This document shows, one piece after another, positions 3,846-11,392 of a stretch of DNA of 64,000 nt; the first letter of the stretch is position 1, and the number at the start of each line of letters is the position of its first letter. A program made the translations under genes and the position numbers. Below the pieces are notes generated by a model. It ran no database searches. It saw only the letters and a program-made list of their open reading frames with translations, and was not told the DNA's origin. The DNA comes from Sphaerisporangium album (lineage in GTDB: Bacteria > Actinomycetota > Actinomycetes > Streptosporangiales > Streptosporangiaceae), in the NCBI RefSeq assembly GCF_003323745.1, contig NZ_QOIL01000009.1:248001-312000 (forward strand). Direction: 5' to 3'.

Positions 3846-3924
3846 CCACTAGCGGACATTAGGGCGGGTGCGAGGCAGGTGCCCCCCGTACCGGAGATGT
3901 CCGGCACGAGGCCCGGCAACAGGA

Positions 3925-3951
3925 AAGCCCGTTCCGCGATGGAACGGGCTT
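3925..3951. terminator. Strong hairpin, inferred original terminator of tRNA-Ser
   Basis: AAGCCCGTTCC (3925-3935) and GGAACGGGCTT (3941-3951) form a perfect 11-bp stem with a 5-base loop. On the minus strand it is followed by TTTCC. It sits 22 bp outside the displaced tRNA 3' copy at 3973. Removing the inserted element would place it just downstream of the tRNA-Ser gene, so I infer it was the tRNA terminator. It may now end transcription of the GNAT gene. Confidence 0.65.
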
Positions 3952-3972
3952 CTGTGTGCTGCCTGGACGGCC

Positions 3973-3998
3973 TGGCGGTGGAGGTGGGATTTGAACCC
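3973..3998 (-). repeat. Displaced attachment site: copy of the tRNA-Ser 3' end
   Basis: These 26 bases are identical to 10779-10804, which is the 3' end of the intact tRNA-Ser gene: CCA, discriminator, acceptor strand and most of the T-arm. Identity starts exactly at the CCA end. Past 3998 the tRNA sequence is not continued, so this is a displaced end-fragment and not a second tRNA. It marks the far boundary of the integrated element. Confidence 0.85.
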
Positions 3999-4426
3999 GC
4001 CATCCCTACCGCTGCAAGCTGCTGTGATTCGCACCGTAGCAGCTCAGGGGCGAACGAGGGTAGACGTAGGGAGACAGGACAGCACGAGGGTAGACGAAAT
4101 GTGCTGCCAATTTGCAGCACCGATGATCTTGAGAGAGGCGACGCACGGGCAGCACGATGTGCTCCACCTCGATGCCGCCCGTACCGACCCAACGCGTTCC
4201 CACGGGCGAGAGGGTAGGAAACCCCAGGTCAACGGACGGCCAAACGCCTGGCGGCACTACGGAGGGACCCCGCTCCGCCCCGCAGGCGCAGGGCTGTCCA
4301 TATCTGGACACGTCCGTGATATCCGGCCTTGATCGGGGAAAGGGCGTCTACGCCGTCGGCGGGGCGCACACCCCGGTCGGATGGCGGTGAAGTCCGGGAC
4401 AGAAAGAACAAGAAGAGAGGGTCGCC
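3999..4426. other. Element end region with repeats, no gene
   Basis: This 428-bp stretch has no convincing reading frame. It holds a stem-loop (AGCTGCT 4017-4023, AGCAGCT 4038-4044), a direct repeat (4054-4066 and 4084-4096), a second inverted repeat (GTGCTGC/GCAGCAC near 4101-4120), and three motifs also found at the other element end: TAGCAGCTCAG at 4037, AAATGTGCTG at 4097 and ATGATCTTGA at 4123. This is the pattern expected of integrase arm sites next to an attachment core. Confidence 0.6.
4054..4096. repeat. 13-bp direct repeat pair, candidate integrase arm-type sites
   Basis: ACGAGGGTAGACG occurs at 4054-4066 and again at 4084-4096, exactly 30 bp apart (about three helical turns). Spacing on the same DNA face next to an attachment core fits arm-type binding sites for a tyrosine integrase. 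Function is inferred. Confidence 0.55.
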
Positions 4427-4756
4427 ATGCGGACCGCATCCACACGCCGGAAGGCCGGGCTGTTACTCCTGGGAACAACGCTGGTGGGCGGGCTGTTAGC
4501 CACCGCCCCGCCGGCCAGTGCCGCCAACTGGAACTGCAGGGTCGTCACGGCGCAGGACGTGCGATGGTTCGCCTCCTCCACCGGGACCGCGACCAGCCCT
4601 CCGTACAGCCTGTCCAACGGCTCGGTGTTCAAGAGCTTCGGCGTGGCCAACGGCCGGTACAGCGCCCAGATCGTCAACCCGATCGCGGCCGCGGGCTGGG
4701 TGACCGCCGACAGCCGGTACGTATCGCTGGTGGCGGACGGCTACTGCAACTGGTGA
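4427..4756 (+). CDS. Secreted small SH3-like protein
   Basis: The 109-residue precursor has a twin-Arg-containing basic N-terminus, a hydrophobic core and a cleavage-like ASA site around residues 31-33. The mature part has two cysteines (in WNCR and GYCNW) that could form a disulfide. It also has alternating beta-type segments such as GRYSAQIVN and GWVTADSRYVSL, resembling bacterial SH3b domains that bind cell wall or glycans. A GAGAGGG sequence precedes the ATG. It lies inside the element as a single gene followed by its own strong hairpin, so it is probably element cargo. Function is not known. Confidence 0.7.
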   Translation: MRTASTRRKAGLLLLGTTLVGGLLATAPPASAANWNCRVVTAQDVRWFASSTGTATSPPYSLSNGSVFKSFGVANGRYSAQIVNPIAAAGWVTADSRYVSLVADGYCNW

Positions 4757-4827
4757 CCACGATCCACCTGCCGGGCCTGTCTGAGGGGCTCGCCGAGATG
4801 GACGTGGAGTAGGGCTGTAGATCGCAA

Positions 4828-4867
4828 ACGGCGCCCCGCATCCCCTCCTGGGAGGGCGGGGCGCCGT
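4828..4867 (+). terminator. Terminator hairpin after the secreted protein gene
   Basis: A perfect 12-bp stem runs from ACGGCGCCCCGC (4828-4839) to GCGGGGCGCCGT (4856-4867), with further partial pairing inside the loop. It follows the stop codon at 4756 by about 70 bp. Third-position T-tracts are absent, as is normal here. Confidence 0.7.
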
Positions 4868-5103
4868 CGTCGTGCCGGGGGCGCTTCGTAGGATCGGCCC
4901 GTACCGCGCGACCTCGGCGGAGCATCAAGGAGCCGAGCGGGCCAGAAATGGCGACGCCCCGCTACCCGGAGGGCGACGGGGCGGGAGGCTACCGGGAGCC
5001 CCTCTCCCGGTCGAGCTCGACGCGCCGCCCGTCCGGCGTCACGACCATCCGAAATCGATCCCGGCCCGGCCGCCCGGCGCTCAGCCACCCGAGGTAGGCC
5101 GCC

Positions 5104-5370
5104 CTACACCGAGGTCGAGATGCGCACCAGCACGCCGTCCCGGGTGAGGGCGAACCACGCGCGACCGTTGCACAGCTCGACCGGGATGCTCAGGGTGTCG
5201 GCCCACTGCTCGATGATCTGGACCTGCCGGGCGAGGTCCTGCGGGACCGGCACCGCGCGTACCCCTGGACCTTCCAGGTACCAGGTCAGCGACGGCAGGT
5301 CGGGGTGCTCGCGTTCGAGCTCGGCCATGACGTCGACCGGCGGCCGTGCCGGGCACGACGCACGGGTCAC
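5104..5370 (-). CDS. Small hypothetical protein, element-associated type
   Basis: An 88-residue soluble protein whose clearest segment is VMAELEREHPDLPSLTWYL, followed by a helix (ARQVQIIEQWADTL) and a short C-terminal strand pair. Similar small proteins occur, as I recall, in actinomycete integrative elements and plasmids without known function. It lies directly downstream of, and on the same strand as, a small zinc-ribbon gene, 53 bp away, so the two probably form one transcript. The start could be the internal GTG/ATG near the VMAEL segment, because the first 13 residues look unlike a folded start. Confidence 0.55.
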   Translation of the reverse strand: MTRASCPARPPVDVMAELEREHPDLPSLTWYLEGPGVRAVPVPQDLARQVQIIEQWADTLSIPVELCNGRAWFALTRDGVLVRISTSV

Positions 5371-5423
5371 CGCGTCCCGTAGCTCGGCGAAACGCCGCAG
5401 GTGGTTGGCTCAAGGTGGGGAGT

Positions 5424-5669
5424 TCAGCCCTCATCGCCGAAGCGTCGGCATCCGGTGCAGGAGAACACCGGCCACAGTCGGCCGTGCACTTGCACATGAC
5501 CAGCGGAGTGCAGGCGCTGCGTGACAGCACCGCAGCGGAGGCAGGCCAGGCCGTGCAGGCGGGCGATGCTGAGATGATCTCCTGCCGGTATCGGCGCCGA
5601 CGGCGGCGTTACCCCTGCCATGCCTTTCCCATCTGCTTGTGCCTCTTGGACAGTCAGATGGTGTGTCAC
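5424..5669 (-). CDS. Small zinc-ribbon protein, element-associated type
   Basis: The 81-residue protein contains two Cys-x2-Cys knuckles (ACLRCG and SCTGC) about 26 residues apart, the layout of a zinc ribbon. The segment LHGLACLRCGAV followed by SAGHVQV is a pattern I associate with small proteins carried on Streptomyces integrative elements. No enzymatic domain is present. The gene is upstream of the 88-residue gene on the same strand. The competing frame 5081-5530 lacks such motifs and is treated as a shadow. Confidence 0.6.
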   Translation of the reverse strand: MTHHLTVQEAQADGKGMAGVTPPSAPIPAGDHLSIARLHGLACLRCGAVTQRLHSAGHVQVHGRLWPVFSCTGCRRFGDEG

Positions 5670-5715
5670 CGCCCGCAGAACAAGTGACCCAACGTGGGTT
5701 AGCTGGGTTACCGCA

Positions 5716-6813
5716 TCAGGTTGCGTTGCACCATTCCGCGAAGTTGGTCAAGGACTCGGCATCGGCTCGCTTCAGCCTGCGCAGCGTAGCTGCGTCTTCC
5801 CGAACCCACCGATGATCGCGTGTGTGCTGAGGGGCAATCTTTCGGGCGACCTTGAGGGATTCGAAGGCGTCATCGGGAAGGCCAGCCCACAGTTGGGCGC
5901 GCCCGAGTTCGATGTAGAACCCGGAACGGCGCTCGGCAGGGAGATCGTGCGGCGGTGCCCATTTGCGAGCGACGTCCAGTGCTCGGGTCACGTGGTCGCT
6001 GCCGAGGCTGACGGCGACGGAGACCTCGTGGATTCGTACCGACGAAGGTCCGAACGCTGTGCCGTCGTATACGCCTTCGAGGATCTGATCGCCTAGCCTT
6101 CGGGCTTCGGCGAGGTGCGTTTCTGAGGCGGTCGCGTTCAACGCCCGACCTGCGATGACGGCAGCCCGCATGTGGAGTGCGCCGCGGCTTGCCAACGCCT
6201 CCACCTGGTCAGTTCGGGGTGCGACATCGATGGCTCGTTCAAGGGCGCGTAGGCCGGCGGCATGGGCCTGGGCGGCGAAGAAGGTCTCCGTTCGGACGTA
6301 GGCGACGGTCGCGTCCAGGACCTCGTCTTGAGCGTGGGGTGCGGCCCAGCGGATGAGGTCCACCAGGCGTGCTGAGAGGTCATAGGAACCGATCTTGTAC
6401 GCGACGGCGTCGGCCGATCGGCAGGCCGAGACAACAAGTCGGGCCATCTCCTGTCGGTTTCCGGGCGGAGCGGAATGGAAGGCCCGGAACAGCTCGGCGA
6501 GCAGGTCTGGCAGATGACGAATGATCTGCACGTATTGGGCCGCAAGGCGCCAGCCGACAGCATCGTCGACCATGGCACGAAGTTCCTGCATGGGACGGAC
6601 GGGACCGTCGTCGGGGATGTCGTAGGTGGCGATAGCGGCCGAGAGGGCGGGGATGGCCTGCTGGAGCTGAGATCGCGCCCGCTCGCGGTCTTCCAGGAGT
6701 ACCGAGGGGTCGATCCGCAAGGCTCCGGCTATGGCTTCAAGGACGTTCTCCCCAACGCCCCGTGCGCCGCGTTCGATCTTTCTGTGATCCTTCTGAGCTG
6801 CAGGAAGACCTCC
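5716..6813 (-). pseudogene. XRE-family regulator lacking most of its helix-turn-helix
   Basis: The C-terminal 334 residues are an all-helical TPR-like region (repeated A-x3-Y and LxxA patterns) usual in actinomycete XRE regulators with C-terminal helical repeats. Reading upstream in the same frame gives HRKIERGARGVGENV followed by LEAIAGALRIDPSVLL, the last two helices of an XRE HTH. The frame then meets the stop codon (6814-6816) of the imine-reductase gene, so the first ~45 residues of the HTH are missing. The longest start now available is TTG at 6720, which leaves out the DNA-binding domain. Third-position GC looks lower than in neighbours. Most likely a 5'-truncated gene. Confidence 0.6.
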
Positions 6814-7701
6814 TCACCGAGGGTTCAGGATCTCGGTGATCCGGAGGAACCCGTCTGTGCCGTGACCCCGTCCGATGGCGCGGCGCGCCAGGCCTTCGGC
6901 CGCACGCATCACGCCCGCATCGATGCCATGGGCCTCGGAGGTGTGGACTATGTGGGCCATGGACGATACCGCCGAGGTGATCGGGTTGCCCTCGCCGGAG
7001 AAGCTGCCGCTGTCCACTTCCTCCGCGGACTGCTCGAAGATCGGTGGGAGAATCGCGCCGATGCCCTTGGCGAACGGTGCCAGCTCCCGCGCGCTGACCC
7101 CCTCAGCCCTCGCCACGGCCAGTGCGTGCGCATAGCCCGCCATCGCGGTCCAGAAGATGTCGAGCAAGGCGATGTCGTAAGCGGCCGCCCGCCCGATTTC
7201 CTCACCGAGGTGGGTGTGGGTGCCACCCAGCGCGTCCAGCGCCAGCCGGTGCTGGCGGTAAAGCTCTTCGGGGCCGCTGTGGAGGAACACCGCGGCCGGT
7301 GTTCCGATGGTCGTGGTCGGCGTCATGATCGCACCGTCCAGGTACCCGATGCCTTGCTCGGCCGCCCAGGCCTCGGTGTCCCGGGCCCGGTCGGGGGTGT
7401 CGGCGGTCAAATTCACGACCGTGCGCCCCTTGAGCGCGTCGGTGACCGCACCGCGCCGGACAATGGCGTCCACCGCGTCGTAGTTCACCACGCAGACCAC
7501 AGTCAACCTGCTTGCGGCGACCGCCGCTTCGGGCGATCGGGCACCGACCGCGCCCCGCTCGACCAACTCACGATCCTTGCCCGGCGTCCGGTTCCAGACC
7601 GTGGTCCGCATGCCAGCATCCAGGAAGGCGCCGGTCAGGGCCCGGCCCATCGGCCCCAGGCCGAGCACGGTGACGGCAGACTGTTCGGTGTGCGAGGTCA
7701 T
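6814..7701 (-). CDS. NAD(P)-dependent oxidoreductase, imine reductase / beta-hydroxyacid dehydrogenase family
   Basis: The 295-residue enzyme opens with a Rossmann fold (TVLGLGPMGRALTGAF, GxGxMG motif at about residues 13-18) and VWNRT for NADP phosphate contact. The all-alpha second half (AAAYDIALLDIFWTAMAGYAHALA) is the dimerisation domain of 6PGDH-like imine reductases. These enzymes reduce cyclic imines or hydroxy acids; the physiological substrate cannot be told. It is divergent from an HxlR regulator only 31 bp away, the usual paired arrangement. Both are probably cargo of the tRNA-Ser element. Its stop codon abuts the remains of the XRE gene. Confidence 0.85.
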   Translation of the reverse strand: MTSHTEQSAVTVLGLGPMGRALTGAFLDAGMRTTVWNRTPGKDRELVERGAVGARSPEAAVAASRLTVVCVVNYDAVDAIVRRGAVTDALKGRTVVNLTADTPDRARDTEAWAAEQGIGYLDGAIMTPTTTIGTPAAVFLHSGPEELYRQHRLALDALGGTHTHLGEEIGRAAAYDIALLDIFWTAMAGYAHALAVARAEGVSARELAPFAKGIGAILPPIFEQSAEEVDSGSFSGEGNPITSAVSSMAHIVHTSEAHGIDAGVMRAAEGLARRAIGRGHGTDGFLRITEILNPR

Positions 7702-7732
7702 GCCTCAACTCCTCAATAAGAAATAGCAAACG

Positions 7733-8101
7733 GTGATGAATGGGATGAAGATGACGCGCAGCCGTGCCCAGGACCCGAATGTCTGCGGAGTGACCGCCGC
7801 GATCGCCGTGATCGACGGCAAATGGAAGACAATTTTGCTCTGGCTCCTGGAATCCGGTCCGCGCCGCCCCGGCGAGCTGCGTCGGCGACTGCCGGGCCTC
7901 ACCGAGAAGGTGCTGACTCAGACGCTCCGGGAGATGGAGGTCGACGGACTGGTCCACCGGGAGGTGCACGATGTTCGGCCACTGAAGACCGTGTACTCCC
8001 TGACCGCGTTCGGCCACGAACTCTCAGAAGCGCTGGCGCCTCTTTCCGACTGGGGCCACCGCCGTCTGGAGACGCTGGCCGAGGCCCAATCGGTCTCCTG
8101 A
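7733..8101 (+). CDS. HxlR-family winged-helix transcriptional regulator
   Basis: The 122-residue protein has the HxlR winged-helix domain. Signature segments are VIDGKWKTILLWLL, RPGELRRRLPGLTEKVLTQT and REMEVDGLVHREV, with a single Cys in NVCGVT as in redox- or aldehyde-sensing members. It is divergently transcribed from the imine reductase across a 31-bp gap, so one operator there would control both genes. Several in-frame starts (7733 GTG, 7736, 7745, 7751 ATG) exist and no ribosome binding site decides between them. Family members mostly act as repressors or activators of the adjacent oxidoreductase. Confidence 0.88.
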   Translation: MMNGMKMTRSRAQDPNVCGVTAAIAVIDGKWKTILLWLLESGPRRPGELRRRLPGLTEKVLTQTLREMEVDGLVHREVHDVRPLKTVYSLTAFGHELSEALAPLSDWGHRRLETLAEAQSVS

Positions 8102-8287
8102 TACACCGCGAACCTCCCCGTCTCATCTGGATCTGACGGCCCTCCGCAACCGCCCACGACCAAGCTTCAGGCCGCTCCCGGCCCGCCGACAAGTACCCAC
8201 AAAAAAGTGGCTACCGCAGGTAGCGCGGAGTACCGGAGAAGAGAAGGTCACCCGGTCGTGGTTCGATTTATCGCGTGTAATAATTAA

Positions 8288-8366
8288 TTATCTGCGATAT
8301 CGGCCAACGCGAGCAGGCGAAACACCACCCCGATCCGGGGTCGGTTCGCACTGCTTATCTGCGATA
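8288..8366. repeat. Exact 12-bp direct repeats upstream of a recombinase remnant
   Basis: TTATCTGCGATA occurs at 8288-8299 and 8355-8366, starts 67 bp apart, in an AT-rich island unlike its surroundings. A related inverted half (TATCGC near 8269) faces the first copy. They lie immediately before the broken recombinase starting at 8385 and may be recombinase or regulator binding sites. The intergenic stretch 8102-8384 holds nothing else recognisable. Confidence 0.6.
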
Positions 8367-8384
8367 GAACTGAGGGGGCGGATC

Positions 8385-9228
8385 ATGGGCGAACTGGCTC
8401 GCCTCGACCGCAGCGGATCACCCACCTTGCTCGCCGCGGTCGCCGCCTACCTCGCCACCCTCGCCGGTCCCGAACAGCACCAGACGCGCCGCGCCTACCG
8501 CTCCACCCTCCGGGCCCTGGCCGCCGAATTCGCACCCGCCGACCCCGCGACCGGCAAGCCGTCGCCGTTCGCCGTCGCCGAGTTCGACCGCGAGGCCAAC
8601 GTCGACCGCCTCACCACCTGGTTCGGCGATCAGTGGAACGACAGGGCGGCCGCGACGTTCAACCGGCACCTGGACGCGCTCCGCTCGGCGGTCGCCTTCT
8701 GGCAGGACCAGGCCGGATGGCTGTCGGCCGACCCGACCCGCCTGCTCCGGCGACGCGGCCGCGCCCCCGACCGGACCCGGGCAATGTCGATCTCCGAGAT
8801 CGAGGCGCTGTTCGACATGGAGGTGCCGATCCGGGAGAAGACACTGTGGCGGATGCTGTACGAATCCGCCGCCCGCTCCAGCGAAGTCCTCGCCCTGGAC
8901 GTCCCAGGACCTGGATCTGAAGAACCGGCGCGCCAAGGTCACCCGCAAGGGCTCGGCGGTGGATGTCATCGTCTGGCAGACCGGCACAGCCCGCCTGTTG
9001 CCCAAGCTGCTGAACGGGCGCAAGAAGGGGCCGGTGTTCCTCACCGAACGCAAAGCCCGCGTCGCCCTGGCCGCCGCAGACCTCGACCCCGTCACCGGGC
9101 GGGCCCGCCTGTCCTACCGGCGGGCCGAGGAACTGTTCACCGACCTCACCCGGCCGCTGGCCCACCCCGACATCACCGACCCCGTCCTGCTCGCCGCGGC
9201 CGAGCCATGGACGCTGCACGATCTCCGG
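8385..9228 (+). pseudogene. Tyrosine recombinase, frameshifted and truncated
   Basis: Residues 1-172 in the first frame form a SAM-like N-terminal domain and the start of the catalytic domain, including the first catalytic Arg in YESAARSSEVLALDV. At about 8905 one extra C in GTCCCAGG shifts the frame. Reading on in the +1 frame restores DLDLKNRRAK, VTRKGSAVDVIVWQTG and finally EPWTLHDLR, the HxLR catalytic box. Homology stops there at about 9228, and the sequence becomes antisense to the opposing integrase. The last His/Trp and nucleophilic Tyr boxes are missing, so the enzyme is dead. It is preceded by the 12-bp repeats. Confidence 0.75.
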
Positions 9229-10638
9229 GCCTGTGGCCATCAGGGCGCCGATGACCTCGGCCGCGTGCCGGGCGGCCTCGGGCGACAGCCTGCTGTAGAC
9301 CTCGGCCAGCGCCAGGACGTCCGCGGGCACGGCCAGCCCGAGGGCCGGGGTCGCGGGCGCCGGGTCAGGGTCGCGGGGGGCGGCCATCACGGTGTCGATG
9401 ACGTCGGCGGCCTGGCGGTCGGCCTCGGGCGACAGGTGGCCGTACACGTCGGCGGTGATCACGATCGACTCGTGGCCGAGCCGCTTGGACACGGTGTCCA
9501 GCGAGACGTTCTCCGCCAGGAGGCTCAGCGCGTGCGCGTGGCGGAACTTGTGCGGGGTCGCGGCCGTCTCGATCTGGCGTTCGCGTGCCTTCTCCACGAC
9601 CTTGGACCAGTGGGTCTGGTGCCAGCCGGAGGAGTTCAGGATCCCGCCGCGGGCGCCGGTGAAGATCAGGCCCTTGGCCGGCGCGTCCTTCATCCGGCGC
9701 TTGAGCATCAGCACGACGCTGTCGGGGATCCGGATCGTGCGCAGCCCGGCGTCGCTCTTGGCGTACGGCGCGAGGTAGTTGCGCCGGTGCTCGTCTTCCT
9801 TGACGACCTGGGCGACGGTGAGCAGCTTGCGCCTCAGGTCGATGTCGACCGGCCGCAGCGCGATCATCTCGCCCCAGCGCAGCCCGGTGCCCATCGCCAG
9901 GGTGACGATGTCGCCGGCGAGCTGGGACACCTGGTAGGCGATGGCGATCCAGTCGGCGATCTCCAGGCCTGTGGGCACCTGCTCCAGGGTCACCGTCCGC
10001 CCCGGCCGCTCGGGCAGGATCACCCCGACGCAGGGGTTGACCTCGATCGGGATGGTCTTCTGGCGGGCCGCCCACGACCGCGCGGGCGAGATGACGCCGC
10101 CGTGGACGTTGGAGATCGTCTTGGGCGAGTAGGGGATCCGCTCGCCCTTGCGCAGGTAGGTGCGCCCGCTCATCCAGAACACCCACGCCTGGATGACCTC
10201 GGTGACGACCTCGGTGACGGACAGCCCGCCGAGGGGGCCCAGGCGGGTCTTGTCCTCCAGGGTGACGATCGCGCCGCGGACGTGGGCGTCGTACAGGCGC
10301 CGGTACCCGGCGACCTGACGGGAATTGGCCTTGCCGGTCTTGCTGAGCCAGGCGAGGTAGGCGTAGACGACGGCGGTCAGGGTGACCGCCGCCGCGGTGT
10401 CGGCCGGCTCGACGGGTTCGGCCGGTTGGAGCATCAGCCCGCGGCAGCCCGGGGGGTAGCCCTCGGGGCGCCGGTCTCCCGCGGCCTCGACCTTGGCCTT
10501 GAACTTCCTGGCGACGGTGACGCTGTCGCAGGTCTCGCCGTCTTCGCGCCCGTCGCGTGTTCCGCCCTCGCGCCAGCAGACGCGGAAGGTGGTACGGCCG
10601 GTGCGGTTACTGATCCTCTTTCGGATCCATGCTGCCAT
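8659..10638 (-). CDS. Tyrosine site-specific integrase of the tRNA-Ser element
   Basis: The integrase occupies roughly 9230-10638. Its catalytic residues are all visible: Arg in MGTGLRWGEMIAL, HKFRH box, and LGHESIVITADVYGH with the nucleophile Tyr. The ATG at 10638 is preferred over the GTG at 10647 because AAGGGG lies eight bases upstream of it. The frame continues past the junction at about 9230 and only stops at 8659, adding about 190 residues that are antisense to the broken recombinase and have no protein-like features. The natural C-terminus has therefore been lost. A duplicated helical segment precedes the junction. The gene starts 140 bp from tRNA-Ser, as expected for the element's own integrase. 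Confidence 0.8.
   Translation of the reverse strand: MAAWIRKRISNRTGRTTFRVCWREGGTRDGREDGETCDSVTVARKFKAKVEAAGDRRPEGYPPGCRGLMLQPAEPVEPADTAAAVTLTAVVYAYLAWLSKTGKANSRQVAGYRRLYDAHVRGAIVTLEDKTRLGPLGGLSVTEVVTEVIQAWVFWMSGRTYLRKGERIPYSPKTISNVHGGVISPARSWAARQKTIPIEVNPCVGVILPERPGRTVTLEQVPTGLEIADWIAIAYQVSQLAGDIVTLAMGTGLRWGEMIALRPVDIDLRRKLLTVAQVVKEDEHRRNYLAPYAKSDAGLRTIRIPDSVVLMLKRRMKDAPAKGLIFTGARGGILNSSGWHQTHWSKVVEKARERQIETAATPHKFRHAHALSLLAENVSLDTVSKRLGHESIVITADVYGHLSPEADRQAADVIDTVMAAPRDPDPAPATPALGLAVPADVLALAEVYSRLSPEAARHAAEVIGALMATGPEIVQRPWLGRGEQDGVGDVGVGQRPGEVGEQFLGPPVGQAGPPGDGVEVCGGQGDAGFAFGEEHRPLLAPVQQLGQQAGCAGLPDDDIHRRALAGDLGAPVLQIQVLGRPGRGLRWSGRRIRTASATVSSPGSAPPCRTAPRSRRSTLPGSGRGRGRVAGAGGSGRPTAIRPGPARRRPPSGARPGAG
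9235..9453 (-). repeat. Internal duplication of the integrase C-terminal helix segment
   Basis: About 72 bp at 9382-9453 (encoding YGHLSPEADRQAADVIDTVM) recurs in diverged form at 9235-9306 (YSRLSPEAARHAAEVIGALM), offset by 147 bp, or 49 codons. The first copy carries the catalytic Tyr neighbourhood and the second sits just before the deletion junction. Confidence 0.65.
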
Positions 10639-10693
10639 GTCTGGCACCCCTTTTGATCAGGGGTAGGCACCACCGCCACAGGGACCCGCGTTA

Positions 10694-10727
10694 AAGATCA
10701 TGTCTGTAAATGTGCTGTCATGATCTT
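10694..10727. repeat. Inverted repeat between integrase and tRNA
   Basis: AAGATCATG (10694-10702) and CATGATCTT (10719-10727) form a perfect 9-bp inverted repeat with an AT-rich 16-base spacer. It lies between the integrase start and the attachment core and contains the motifs shared with the far end of the element. Likely an integrase or excisionase binding region, or an int operator. Confidence 0.5.
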
Positions 10728-10737
10728 GAACACGAAA

Positions 10738-10770
10738 GGCCTCCGAGCAAGTTCTAGCAGCTCAGAGGCC
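10738..10770 (-). terminator. Terminator downstream of tRNA-Ser
   Basis: On the minus strand GGCCTCTGAGC pairs with GCTCGGAGGCC (one G-U pair, 11-base loop) and is followed by TTTCGTG. It begins 9 bp after the tRNA 3' end and so serves as the present terminator of the tRNA. It is element DNA that replaced the original terminator now at 3925-3951. Confidence 0.7.
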
Positions 10771-10778
10771 CTATTTAG

Positions 10779-10804
10779 TGGCGGTGGAGGTGGGATTTGA
10801 ACCC
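10779..10804 (-). repeat. Attachment site in the tRNA-Ser 3' end
   Basis: This is the tRNA-side copy of the exact 26-bp direct repeat shared with 3973-3998. The repeat begins at the A of CCA and ends in the T-stem. The integrase gene lies just inside it. It defines an element of about 6.8 kb. Confidence 0.85.
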
Positions 10805-10868
10805 ACGGATGGGTTGCCCCATCACACGCTTTCGAGGCGTGCGCCCTCGGCCACTAGGCGACTCCACC
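10779..10868 (-). tRNA. tRNA-Ser (anticodon CGA)
   Basis: The minus strand folds as a class II tRNA. The acceptor GGTGGAG pairs with CTCCACC and is followed by discriminator G and encoded CCA. A D-arm with GCCTAGTGG, an anticodon stem CACGC/GCGTG with loop CTCGAAA (anticodon CGA, reading UCG), a long variable arm (GATGGG/CCCATC) and a T-arm GTGGGTTCAAATCCCAC complete it. The 3' 26 bases are duplicated at 3973-3998 by insertion of the element, and the gene stays functional. It is next to tadA. Confidence 0.93.
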
Positions 10869-10930
10869 GCCGAGCAGCTTACCGGATCCGGGACACTGCT
10901 CGCGCGTCGGTGGCCAGGGGCCAGGGGTGT

Positions 10931-11392
10931 TCAGCGACGGCGGCCGGCGAAGAAGTCCGTGAGGACGGACGCGCACTCGTCGGCGAGCACGCCGAGCATC
11001 ACCTCCGGGCGGTGGTTCAGCCGGCGGTCGCGGACGACGTCCCAGAGAGAACCGGCCGCGCCCGCCTTCTCGTCCACGGCGCCGTAGACGACGCGGTCCA
11101 CCCGGGCGAGCACCGCGGCCCCGGCGCACATCGTGCACGGCTCCAGGGTGACGACCAGAGTGCAGCCGGACAGGCGCCACTCGCCGCGCGCCCGGGCCGC
11201 CGCGCGCAGCGCGAGGATCTCGGCGTGTGCCGTGGGATCCGCGCCGGCCTCGCGGTCGTTGCCGGCGGCGGCCAGCACCTCGCCCCCGGACCCGAGGACG
11301 ACGGCCCCGACGGGCACCTCGCCCCGCCGCCCCGCCTCGACGGCCTCGGCCAGCGCGAGCCGCATGGGCTTCTCGAAGGATGGCACGCTCAC
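10931..11392 (-). CDS. tadA: tRNA-specific adenosine deaminase TadA
   Basis: The 153-residue enzyme converts A34 to inosine in the tRNA-Arg(ACG) anticodon. Zinc and catalytic residues are at His56-Ala57-Glu58 (HAE) and Cys86/Cys89 (PCTMC). The tRNA-binding helix follows the conserved RVVYGA segment. Start GTG/ATG at 11392 fits the family length of 150-160. It is near tRNA-Ser on the same strand and close to two TadA-associated protein genes, an arrangement common in actinobacteria. Confidence 0.96.
   Translation of the reverse strand: MSVPSFEKPMRLALAEAVEAGRRGEVPVGAVVLGSGGEVLAAAGNDREAGADPTAHAEILALRAAARARGEWRLSGCTLVVTLEPCTMCAGAAVLARVDRVVYGAVDEKAGAAGSLWDVVRDRRLNHRPEVMLGVLADECASVLTDFFAGRRR

Follow-up and report, generated by a model that had tools for sequence, protein, structure and literature searches.

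Why does the 3' end of a tRNA-Ser gene of Sphaerisporangium album occur twice, 6.8 kb apart, and what is the DNA in between? The locus was analyzed within a stretch of 64,000 nt (contig NZ_QOIL01000009.1, positions 248,001 to 312,000; hereafter "the window") and compared with a set of genomes (G labels) and loci (L labels). In all likelihood, the 6.8-kb element is a decayed island in tRNA-Ser(CGA) carrying a phage-type integrase, formed by insertion of a mobile element into the 3' end of the tRNA gene.

Insertion into the 3' end of tRNA-Ser(CGA)

The two direct repeats that flank the 6.8 kb, 3973-3998 and 10779-10804, are identical at 26 of 26 positions, in agreement with the original prediction of an exact 26-bp repeat. 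The sole tRNA of the window, identified by ARAGORN, is tRNA-Ser(CGA) on the minus strand at 10779-10868, and therefore the right repeat is the 3' end of this tRNA, including CCA, of a gene that is intact as had been predicted. The C-terminal part of the predicted tyrosine integrase matches Phage_integrase (PF00589; Pfam, E 1.1e-18). Since this gene starts at 10638, 140 bp inside the element, and is on the same strand as tRNA-Ser, it is located directly behind the tRNA. Another tRNA gene, tRNA-Ser(GGA), 79% similar to tRNA-Ser(CGA), is located about 14 kb away, outside the window (G000:C62:244924-245010).

A genus sample of 11 genomes, the host included, was searched for the integrase (E<=1e-20), and matches were found in two, the host and G006. 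The sites of the nine congeners without integrase all hold an intact tRNA-Ser(CGA) without insert, and the order of GNAT gene, hairpin, tRNA-Ser and tadA is the same at all nine, the GNAT gene of G008 being left only as pieces. This is the arrangement predicted for the empty site. When the flanks of the window are joined at the 26-mer, locus L023 (G003) aligns unbroken across the junction. At the other eight sites, right-flank homology starts at the first base of the 26-mer (seven sites) or one base earlier (one site), and GNAT homology stops about 80 to 890 bp away. The predicted rejoining was thus continuous at one of the nine sites, and at eight the edge of the 26-mer was located to within 1 bp. 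Of the named tadA relatives, those of Microbispora (79%) and Nonomuraea (82%) score best, with Actinomadura and many Streptomyces next, in a collection that may leave out records very close to the host; by these matches, the host would belong to Streptosporangiaceae in the wide sense. In a wider sample of 80 tadA loci, taken from 587 confirmed, tRNA-Ser was found in 72; a close relative of the integrase was absent from these 80 loci, and a distant match was found in two. A distant integrase (31%) is also located beside tRNA-Ser(CGA), adjoining tadA, in Mycobacterium colombiense (L124, 10492-11182), and because of this integrase tRNA-Ser(CGA) is probably a target of other integrase types too.

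The two ends of the element share short motifs (Table 1). Each of TCAAGATCAT and CAGCACATTT occurs within the 64 kb only as one copy at either end, with expected numbers of 0.01 and 0.02, respectively. Two copies were present in none of 100 shuffles, a figure uncorrected for choice because both motifs were picked after the ends had been seen. An analogous pairing in other letters (GGGGGAAC type) was detected at both ends of the related elements of G135 and G199 (see below). The paired motifs are putative integrase arm sites, and they support the view that both original ends of the element are probably still present.

The repeat is more than a chance match, because the nine integrase-less sites hold the tRNA without insert and because the motif pairs are confined to the ends. 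Fragments of tRNA can come from duplication, and a chance repeat or duplicated fragment without any integration was weighed for this locus; it is next to impossible, being already refuted by the empty sites and further opposed by the paired end motifs and by a family of related integrases at the same tRNA. The same three lines of evidence uphold the predicted integrase-mediated insertion. Altogether, the locus shows the marks of a genomic island, i.e., a regenerated tRNA with a displaced fragment, an integrase inside, and empty sites that rejoin at the repeat.

The insertion may be pictured as follows. The incoming element, mobile and equipped with a phage-type tyrosine integrase, would have entered the 3' end of tRNA-Ser(CGA), presumably by a crossover inside the 26 bp common to attP (the attachment site of the element) and the tRNA. 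With the crossover within this shared stretch, the tRNA 3' end would have been rebuilt by the element, and the old end together with the old hairpin moved 6.8 kb away, a displacement shown by the empty sites. As the paired motifs suggest, the integrase would bind, besides the core, arm sites TCAAGATCAT and CAGCACATTT at either end. The element also brought in a hairpin, 6 nt past the tRNA, at which tRNA transcription would stop and which would restrain tRNA-driven reading of the integrase gene.

Hairpins behind the tRNA

At all nine empty sites a hairpin was recognized by eye, no farther than about 25 nt from the 3' end of the tRNA; the insertion has left the corresponding host hairpin at 3923-3952, outside attL. 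The position between tRNA-Ser and integrase is occupied by a terminator-like hairpin of the element itself (Table 1), and a GGGCCTC-type hairpin is present at that position in six of the six other family members compared. A consensus scan of 10600-10960 for promoters and terminators gave no call, the hairpin at 10736-10772 included. In ICEKp1, int is driven by the tRNA promoter and damped by stem-loops (PMC13023037); by analogy, the element hairpin may gate the integrase gene. In Nonomuraea aurantiaca (L053, from 10537), tRNA-Ser is followed by the element-type GGGCCTC hairpin and CAAGATCATGGGGGAAC, with no integrase match in 5.2 kb, and this locus is possibly an end-only remnant of such an element.

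The integrase family and the G135 prophage

The host family was searched for the integrase twice, and matches were found in 9 of 297 genomes (E<=1e-60) and in 9 of 341 genomes (E<=1e-80), seven of the latter being common to the first set. Seven of the first nine are located behind tRNA-Ser(CGA) (window, L031, L035, L036, L038, L039 and L041); the remaining two are near a contig end (L037) and near a tmRNA (L040, 41% identity). The integrases of G351 and G323 are 44% and 42% identical, respectively. In the plasmid collection, 252 records carried relatives of the integrase, every one below 60% identity, and scans of the genome contig and viral contig collections gave 48 and 6 pattern matches, none of which was confirmed.

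In G135, a genome of the same family as the host, a 36.4-kb segment is bounded by an integrase gene (63% identity) and a 27-bp att repeat that is identical in both copies. Among ten proteins of this element scanned against PHROGs, seven were identified as large terminase, portal, major head, tape measure, two major tail proteins and endolysin, while the other three were a replication initiation protein, a protein with its best match to a family of unknown function, and one without match. The integrase of G135 is a single open frame of 435 aa, a flagged TGA being its end. The 36.4-kb element is a siphovirus-type prophage and the sole complete element of the family recognized; the complete element with a close relative of the window integrase is thus a phage. 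It shares with the window element, besides the integrase, the same tRNA end as att core, and a hairpin followed by CAAGATCAT between tRNA and integrase. It differs in having head, tail, lysis and replication genes, and in its second arm motif, which is of the GGGGGAAC type and not CAGCACATTT.

Second att copies were also found in G199 (3.75 kb, one mismatch), G155 (3.9 kb, two mismatches) and G307 (12.2 kb, 50-bp repeat). When the elements were compared at the nucleotide level (pieces of at least 60 bp), G199 and G135 shared 1452 bp at 77% and, in addition, the left 445 bp of G199 at 88%. G155 and G135 shared pieces of 532, 398, 301 and 240 bp at 93-96%, and a left end of 84 bp at 80%. The elements of G199 and G155 appear to derive from G135-type prophages by deletion, less clearly so for G155 at its left end. 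In G163, a second att copy was not found within 39.9 kb, and two stretches match the far part of G135 at 68-69%. Outside the left att copies of G199 and G307, the sequence again resembles a right end, with a hairpin and then a CAAGATC motif (L045 from 13471, L042 from 4918), which might reflect successive insertions at one tRNA. The window element was placed among decayed islands carrying a phage-type integrase because its integrase family is found behind tRNA-Ser(CGA), one member bounding the G135 prophage, and because the two elements of 3.7-3.9 kb share DNA with this prophage.

The elements of 3.7, 3.9, 6.8 and 12.2 kb have the same integrase family, two att copies and the same tRNA with different contents, and an HxlR regulator is present in both the window and G307 elements (37% identical). 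Such a series might be expected of satellite-like or cargo islands, composed of ends and integrase only, that exchange cargo and move with the help of related prophages. We consider this improbable, as G155, G199 and G307 each carry an interrupted integrase gene, which is expected of decay and not of maintenance, whereas the integrase of G135 is open. Moreover, no satellite packaging or interference gene was recognized among the proteins scanned, and in pieces of at least 60 bp the small elements have in common only the ends and the integrase region; G307 and G163 share 813 bp at 93%. More speculative still, the small elements might form a lineage of stripped-down prophages that kept attP, arm sites, tRNA terminator and integrase, were reloaded with cargo and moved in trans by full-size prophages, the terminator protecting tRNA-Ser and quieting the integrase; little weight should be given to this idea. 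For the window element itself, the original prediction of a remnant or satellite-like element stands in its first part, three genes being broken (see below); for the second part no test gave support, a better fit being a prophage remnant or a cargo island.

The integrase nearest to that of the window belongs to G006, in which an 84%-identical integrase at the same tRNA is joined to different contents of about 11.3 kb with other open reading frames (ORFs). Over 1586 bp at the right end the DNA of the two elements is 85% identical; beyond that point the similarity ends. Between the two integrases, rough estimates (NG86) of nonsynonymous (dN) and synonymous (dS) divergence are 0.12 and 0.34, and those of dS for two host genes are 0.47 and 0.59. 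Because integrase dS is lower and nine sites are empty, it is more likely that the elements of the window and G006 arrived separately than that they descend from one shared ancestral insertion.

Cargo and decay

The interior of the element is now occupied by unrelated cargo, namely an imine reductase/HxlR pair, an HTH-TPR-type regulator and small ORFs, and by the relic of a plasmid-type recombinase (Table 1).

Table 1. Features of the element and its insertion site, in order of position
Position	Strand	Feature	Evidence
3923..3952	.	Terminator-like hairpin of the host, displaced	3921-3972 minus folds at -26.2 kcal/mol, z -4.7
3973..3998	-	attL, displaced 26-bp copy of tRNA-Ser 3' end	26/26 identity to 10779-10804
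4054-4065, 4084-4095	-	Two copies of GTCTACCCTCGT, candidate arm sites, left end only	Sequence
4097..4106	-	Arm-type motif CAGCACATTT, left end	Two copies in 64 kb, both at element ends
4123..4132	-	Arm-type motif TCAAGATCAT, left end	Two copies in 64 kb, both at element ends
4427..4756	+	Small protein of 109 aa, signal-peptide-like start (by eye), cargo	ORF; no match in Pfam, PHROGs, NCBIfam
5104..5370	-	ORF of 88 aa, no family	Pfam, PHROGs, NCBIfam scans
5424..5669	-	ORF of 81 aa, two C-x2-C pairs, zinc-ribbon-like (by eye)	Pfam match sub-threshold only
5716..6801	-	HTH-TPR-type regulator (by eye and PHROG name), first part missing	PHROG 5823
6814..7701	-	Imine reductase/reductive aminase-like dehydrogenase	PF21761 E 2.6e-50, PF03446 E 8e-22
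7733..8101	+	HxlR regulator, divergent from reductase	PF01638 E 1.3e-26
8269..8299	+	Inverted-repeat site of second recombinase, 12-bp arms, 7-bp spacer	Same layout before chromosomal and plasmid relatives
8355..8366	+	Third half-site, 67 bp from 8288	Spacing 66-67 bp in 9/15 relatives, 3/3 plasmids
8385..9229	+	Second tyrosine recombinase, broken	Reading frame shifted near 8905; 3' part absent, and with it the catalytic end
9232..10638	-	tRNA-Ser integrase; catalytic region present (residues by eye), end lost by fusion	PF00589; 84% to G006 integrase
10694-10701, 10708-10717, 10720-10729	+, -, -	Right arm-type sites AAGATCAT, CAGCACATTT, TCAAGATCAT	Sequence comparison
10736..10772	-	Terminator-like hairpin of the element, located between tRNA-Ser and integrase	-24.1 kcal/mol, z -4.3, 0/200 shuffles as good
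10779..10868	-	tRNA-Ser(CGA), 3' 26 bp = attR	ARAGORN

Three genes are broken, i.e., the integrase at its C-terminus, the second recombinase and the HTH-TPR-type regulator. The integrase agrees with that of G006 to about 9232, after which the last residues and the stop codon are gone, and its open frame runs on to 8659 as the antisense of the second recombinase. The regulator matches PHROG 5823 ("transcriptional regulator", E 2e-63; no Pfam match) from profile position 37 of 404, and the first start codon of its open frame is at 6720. Its frame of 365 aa compares with 547 and 396 aa in the two closest relatives, the listed frames ranging from 329 aa, and relatives were found in 19 of 60 genomes, its own included. 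The frameshifts could be sequence errors; this is less likely for the gene fusion at 9232. A 72-nt unit is repeated in the integrase C-terminus at 9235-9306 and 9382-9453 (81% identical, 147 nt apart), as also in G006.

The predicted imine reductase/HxlR cargo was recovered by family matches for both genes. Relatives of the imine reductase with 82-90% identity are present in G014, G010, G013, G001 and G002, and in all three of these that were examined the HxlR gene adjoins the reductase (86-94% identical). The three small ORFs have no relatives in the comparison loci (E<=1e-4, host loci of the element excluded) and no family above cut-off in Pfam, PHROGs or NCBIfam. The SH3-like protein claimed in the original prediction accordingly found no family support in these databases. 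Of the claimed zinc-ribbon pair, only the ORF at 5424-5669 carries two C-x2-C pairs, as seen by eye, and neither ORF is above cut-off.

Among the eight element proteins scanned against the three databases, no structural, replication or transfer gene product was found, and the predicted absence of replication and transfer genes holds for this set. In these eight proteins, the element shows neither the combination of an integrase with at least one structural gene by which a prophage is recognized (no structural match in PHROGs), nor that of a replication initiator with a TraB/FtsK-like translocase by which an actinomycete integrative and conjugative element (AICE) is recognized.

A relic of a plasmid-type recombinase

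The second recombinase is a relic of a plasmid-type recombinase. Several intact relatives are of about 306-333 aa, and matches were found in 50 of the 297 family genomes, its own included (E<=1e-15). An TTATCTGCGATA-like half-site is located near the gene start in 13 of 15 relatives (L133-L147, window excluded; two mismatches at most), and an upstream half-site 66-67 bp farther off in nine of the 15. A total of 36 plasmid records match the recombinase (E<=1e-20), and no phage record does at E<=1e-10. All three plasmid relatives carry the three half-sites, with 1-2 mismatches in pFAJ2600, 0-1 in an Amycolatopsis plasmid, where they are located ahead of a small ORF preceding the recombinase gene, and three each in pREC1, one change being common to all three sites.

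DNA similarity among 12 relatives extends mostly from about -120 to +935, reaching -184 and -223 in two pairs, and among the matches listed their neighbors are mostly different, a few having distant protein matches. A one-gene transposable unit was considered as an explanation; when the host's other copy was used to look for an empty site, the region proved to be rearranged. A plasmid cassette is the simpler reading because relatives occur on plasmids. The window gene thus resembles those of pFAJ2600 (NC_003846) and related actinomycete plasmids in recombinase family, inverted-repeat site and a third half-site 66-67 bp on, but differs from them in being broken and chromosomal. The pFAJ2600-type recombinase reportedly plays a role in the resolution of plasmid multimers, a role attributed to work by De Mot in 1997.

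The presence of this relic with its three half-sites inside the element raises the possibility that the element is a remnant of an integrative plasmid or AICE and not of a prophage; integrative and conjugative elements (ICEs) of Frankia also target tRNA 3' ends (PMC3218068). This origin appears rather unlikely, given that the eight element proteins gave no Rep, TraB/FtsK-like or relaxase match and that the only complete-bodied family member found is the G135 prophage. In addition, many chromosomes carry the recombinase unit, mostly next to different genes, and hence it need not mark the parent element.

Weighing of the phage-type origin

Several observations weigh against a decayed island of phage-type origin. 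The 20 best matches listed, among 1515 phage records, are 32.5-34.5% identical to the integrase over 60-61% of the query. Descent from a prophage is argued from the integrase and the right end alone, since the element yielded no structural gene of a phage; the cargo could have a different source, and the relic of the plasmid-type recombinase hints at a plasmid contribution. The arm-motif pairing is weaker in G307, and none was seen at the left end of G155. In 40 kb of the nearest relative, G006, there was no second att copy with up to eight mismatches, nor a second GCAGCACATTT or a left TCAAGATCAT with up to one mismatch. Relative to G008, G006 lacks the segment from position 430 to 668 of L027, as would be expected if its left end had been lost by deletion. 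Finally, the decay may be overstated, since the integrase catalytic region, both att copies and the arm motifs remain. With these points taken into account, the most probable reading is that of an ordinary mobile element now worn out, i.e., a decayed, non-transmissible island.

Comparison with known systems

A limited search of the literature on tRNA-Ser islands (Streptosporangium/Nonomuraea) and ICEs of Actinobacteria gave no report of this element. The locus offers a clean case of element erosion at one tRNA, with a 36-kb prophage, islands of 3.7 to 12 kb that carry related integrases, and empty sites, and leads to a simple hypothesis that elements landing behind a tRNA replace its terminator and control their own integrase. 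No hint of a benefit of the cargo was obtained.

Among predicted prophages of Actinobacteria, 984 of 2106 are remnants, and at least 15% of the loci are near tRNA genes (PMC10023795). ICEKp1 of Klebsiella pneumoniae (PMC13023037) resembles the window element in the integrase behind a tRNA, the displaced tRNA terminator and the stem-loops between tRNA and integrase. It differs in being an ICE, not of phage type, and in that its tRNA promoter has been shown to drive int, whereas the arrangement in the window is known by layout only. The tRNA islands of Islander (PMC4383910) have the same regenerated tRNA at one end, displaced fragment at the other and integrase inside; the window element differs from them in its small size, its cargo of mixed origin and its several broken genes. 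The element is thus of a kind already known, a decayed tRNA island with a phage-type integrase.

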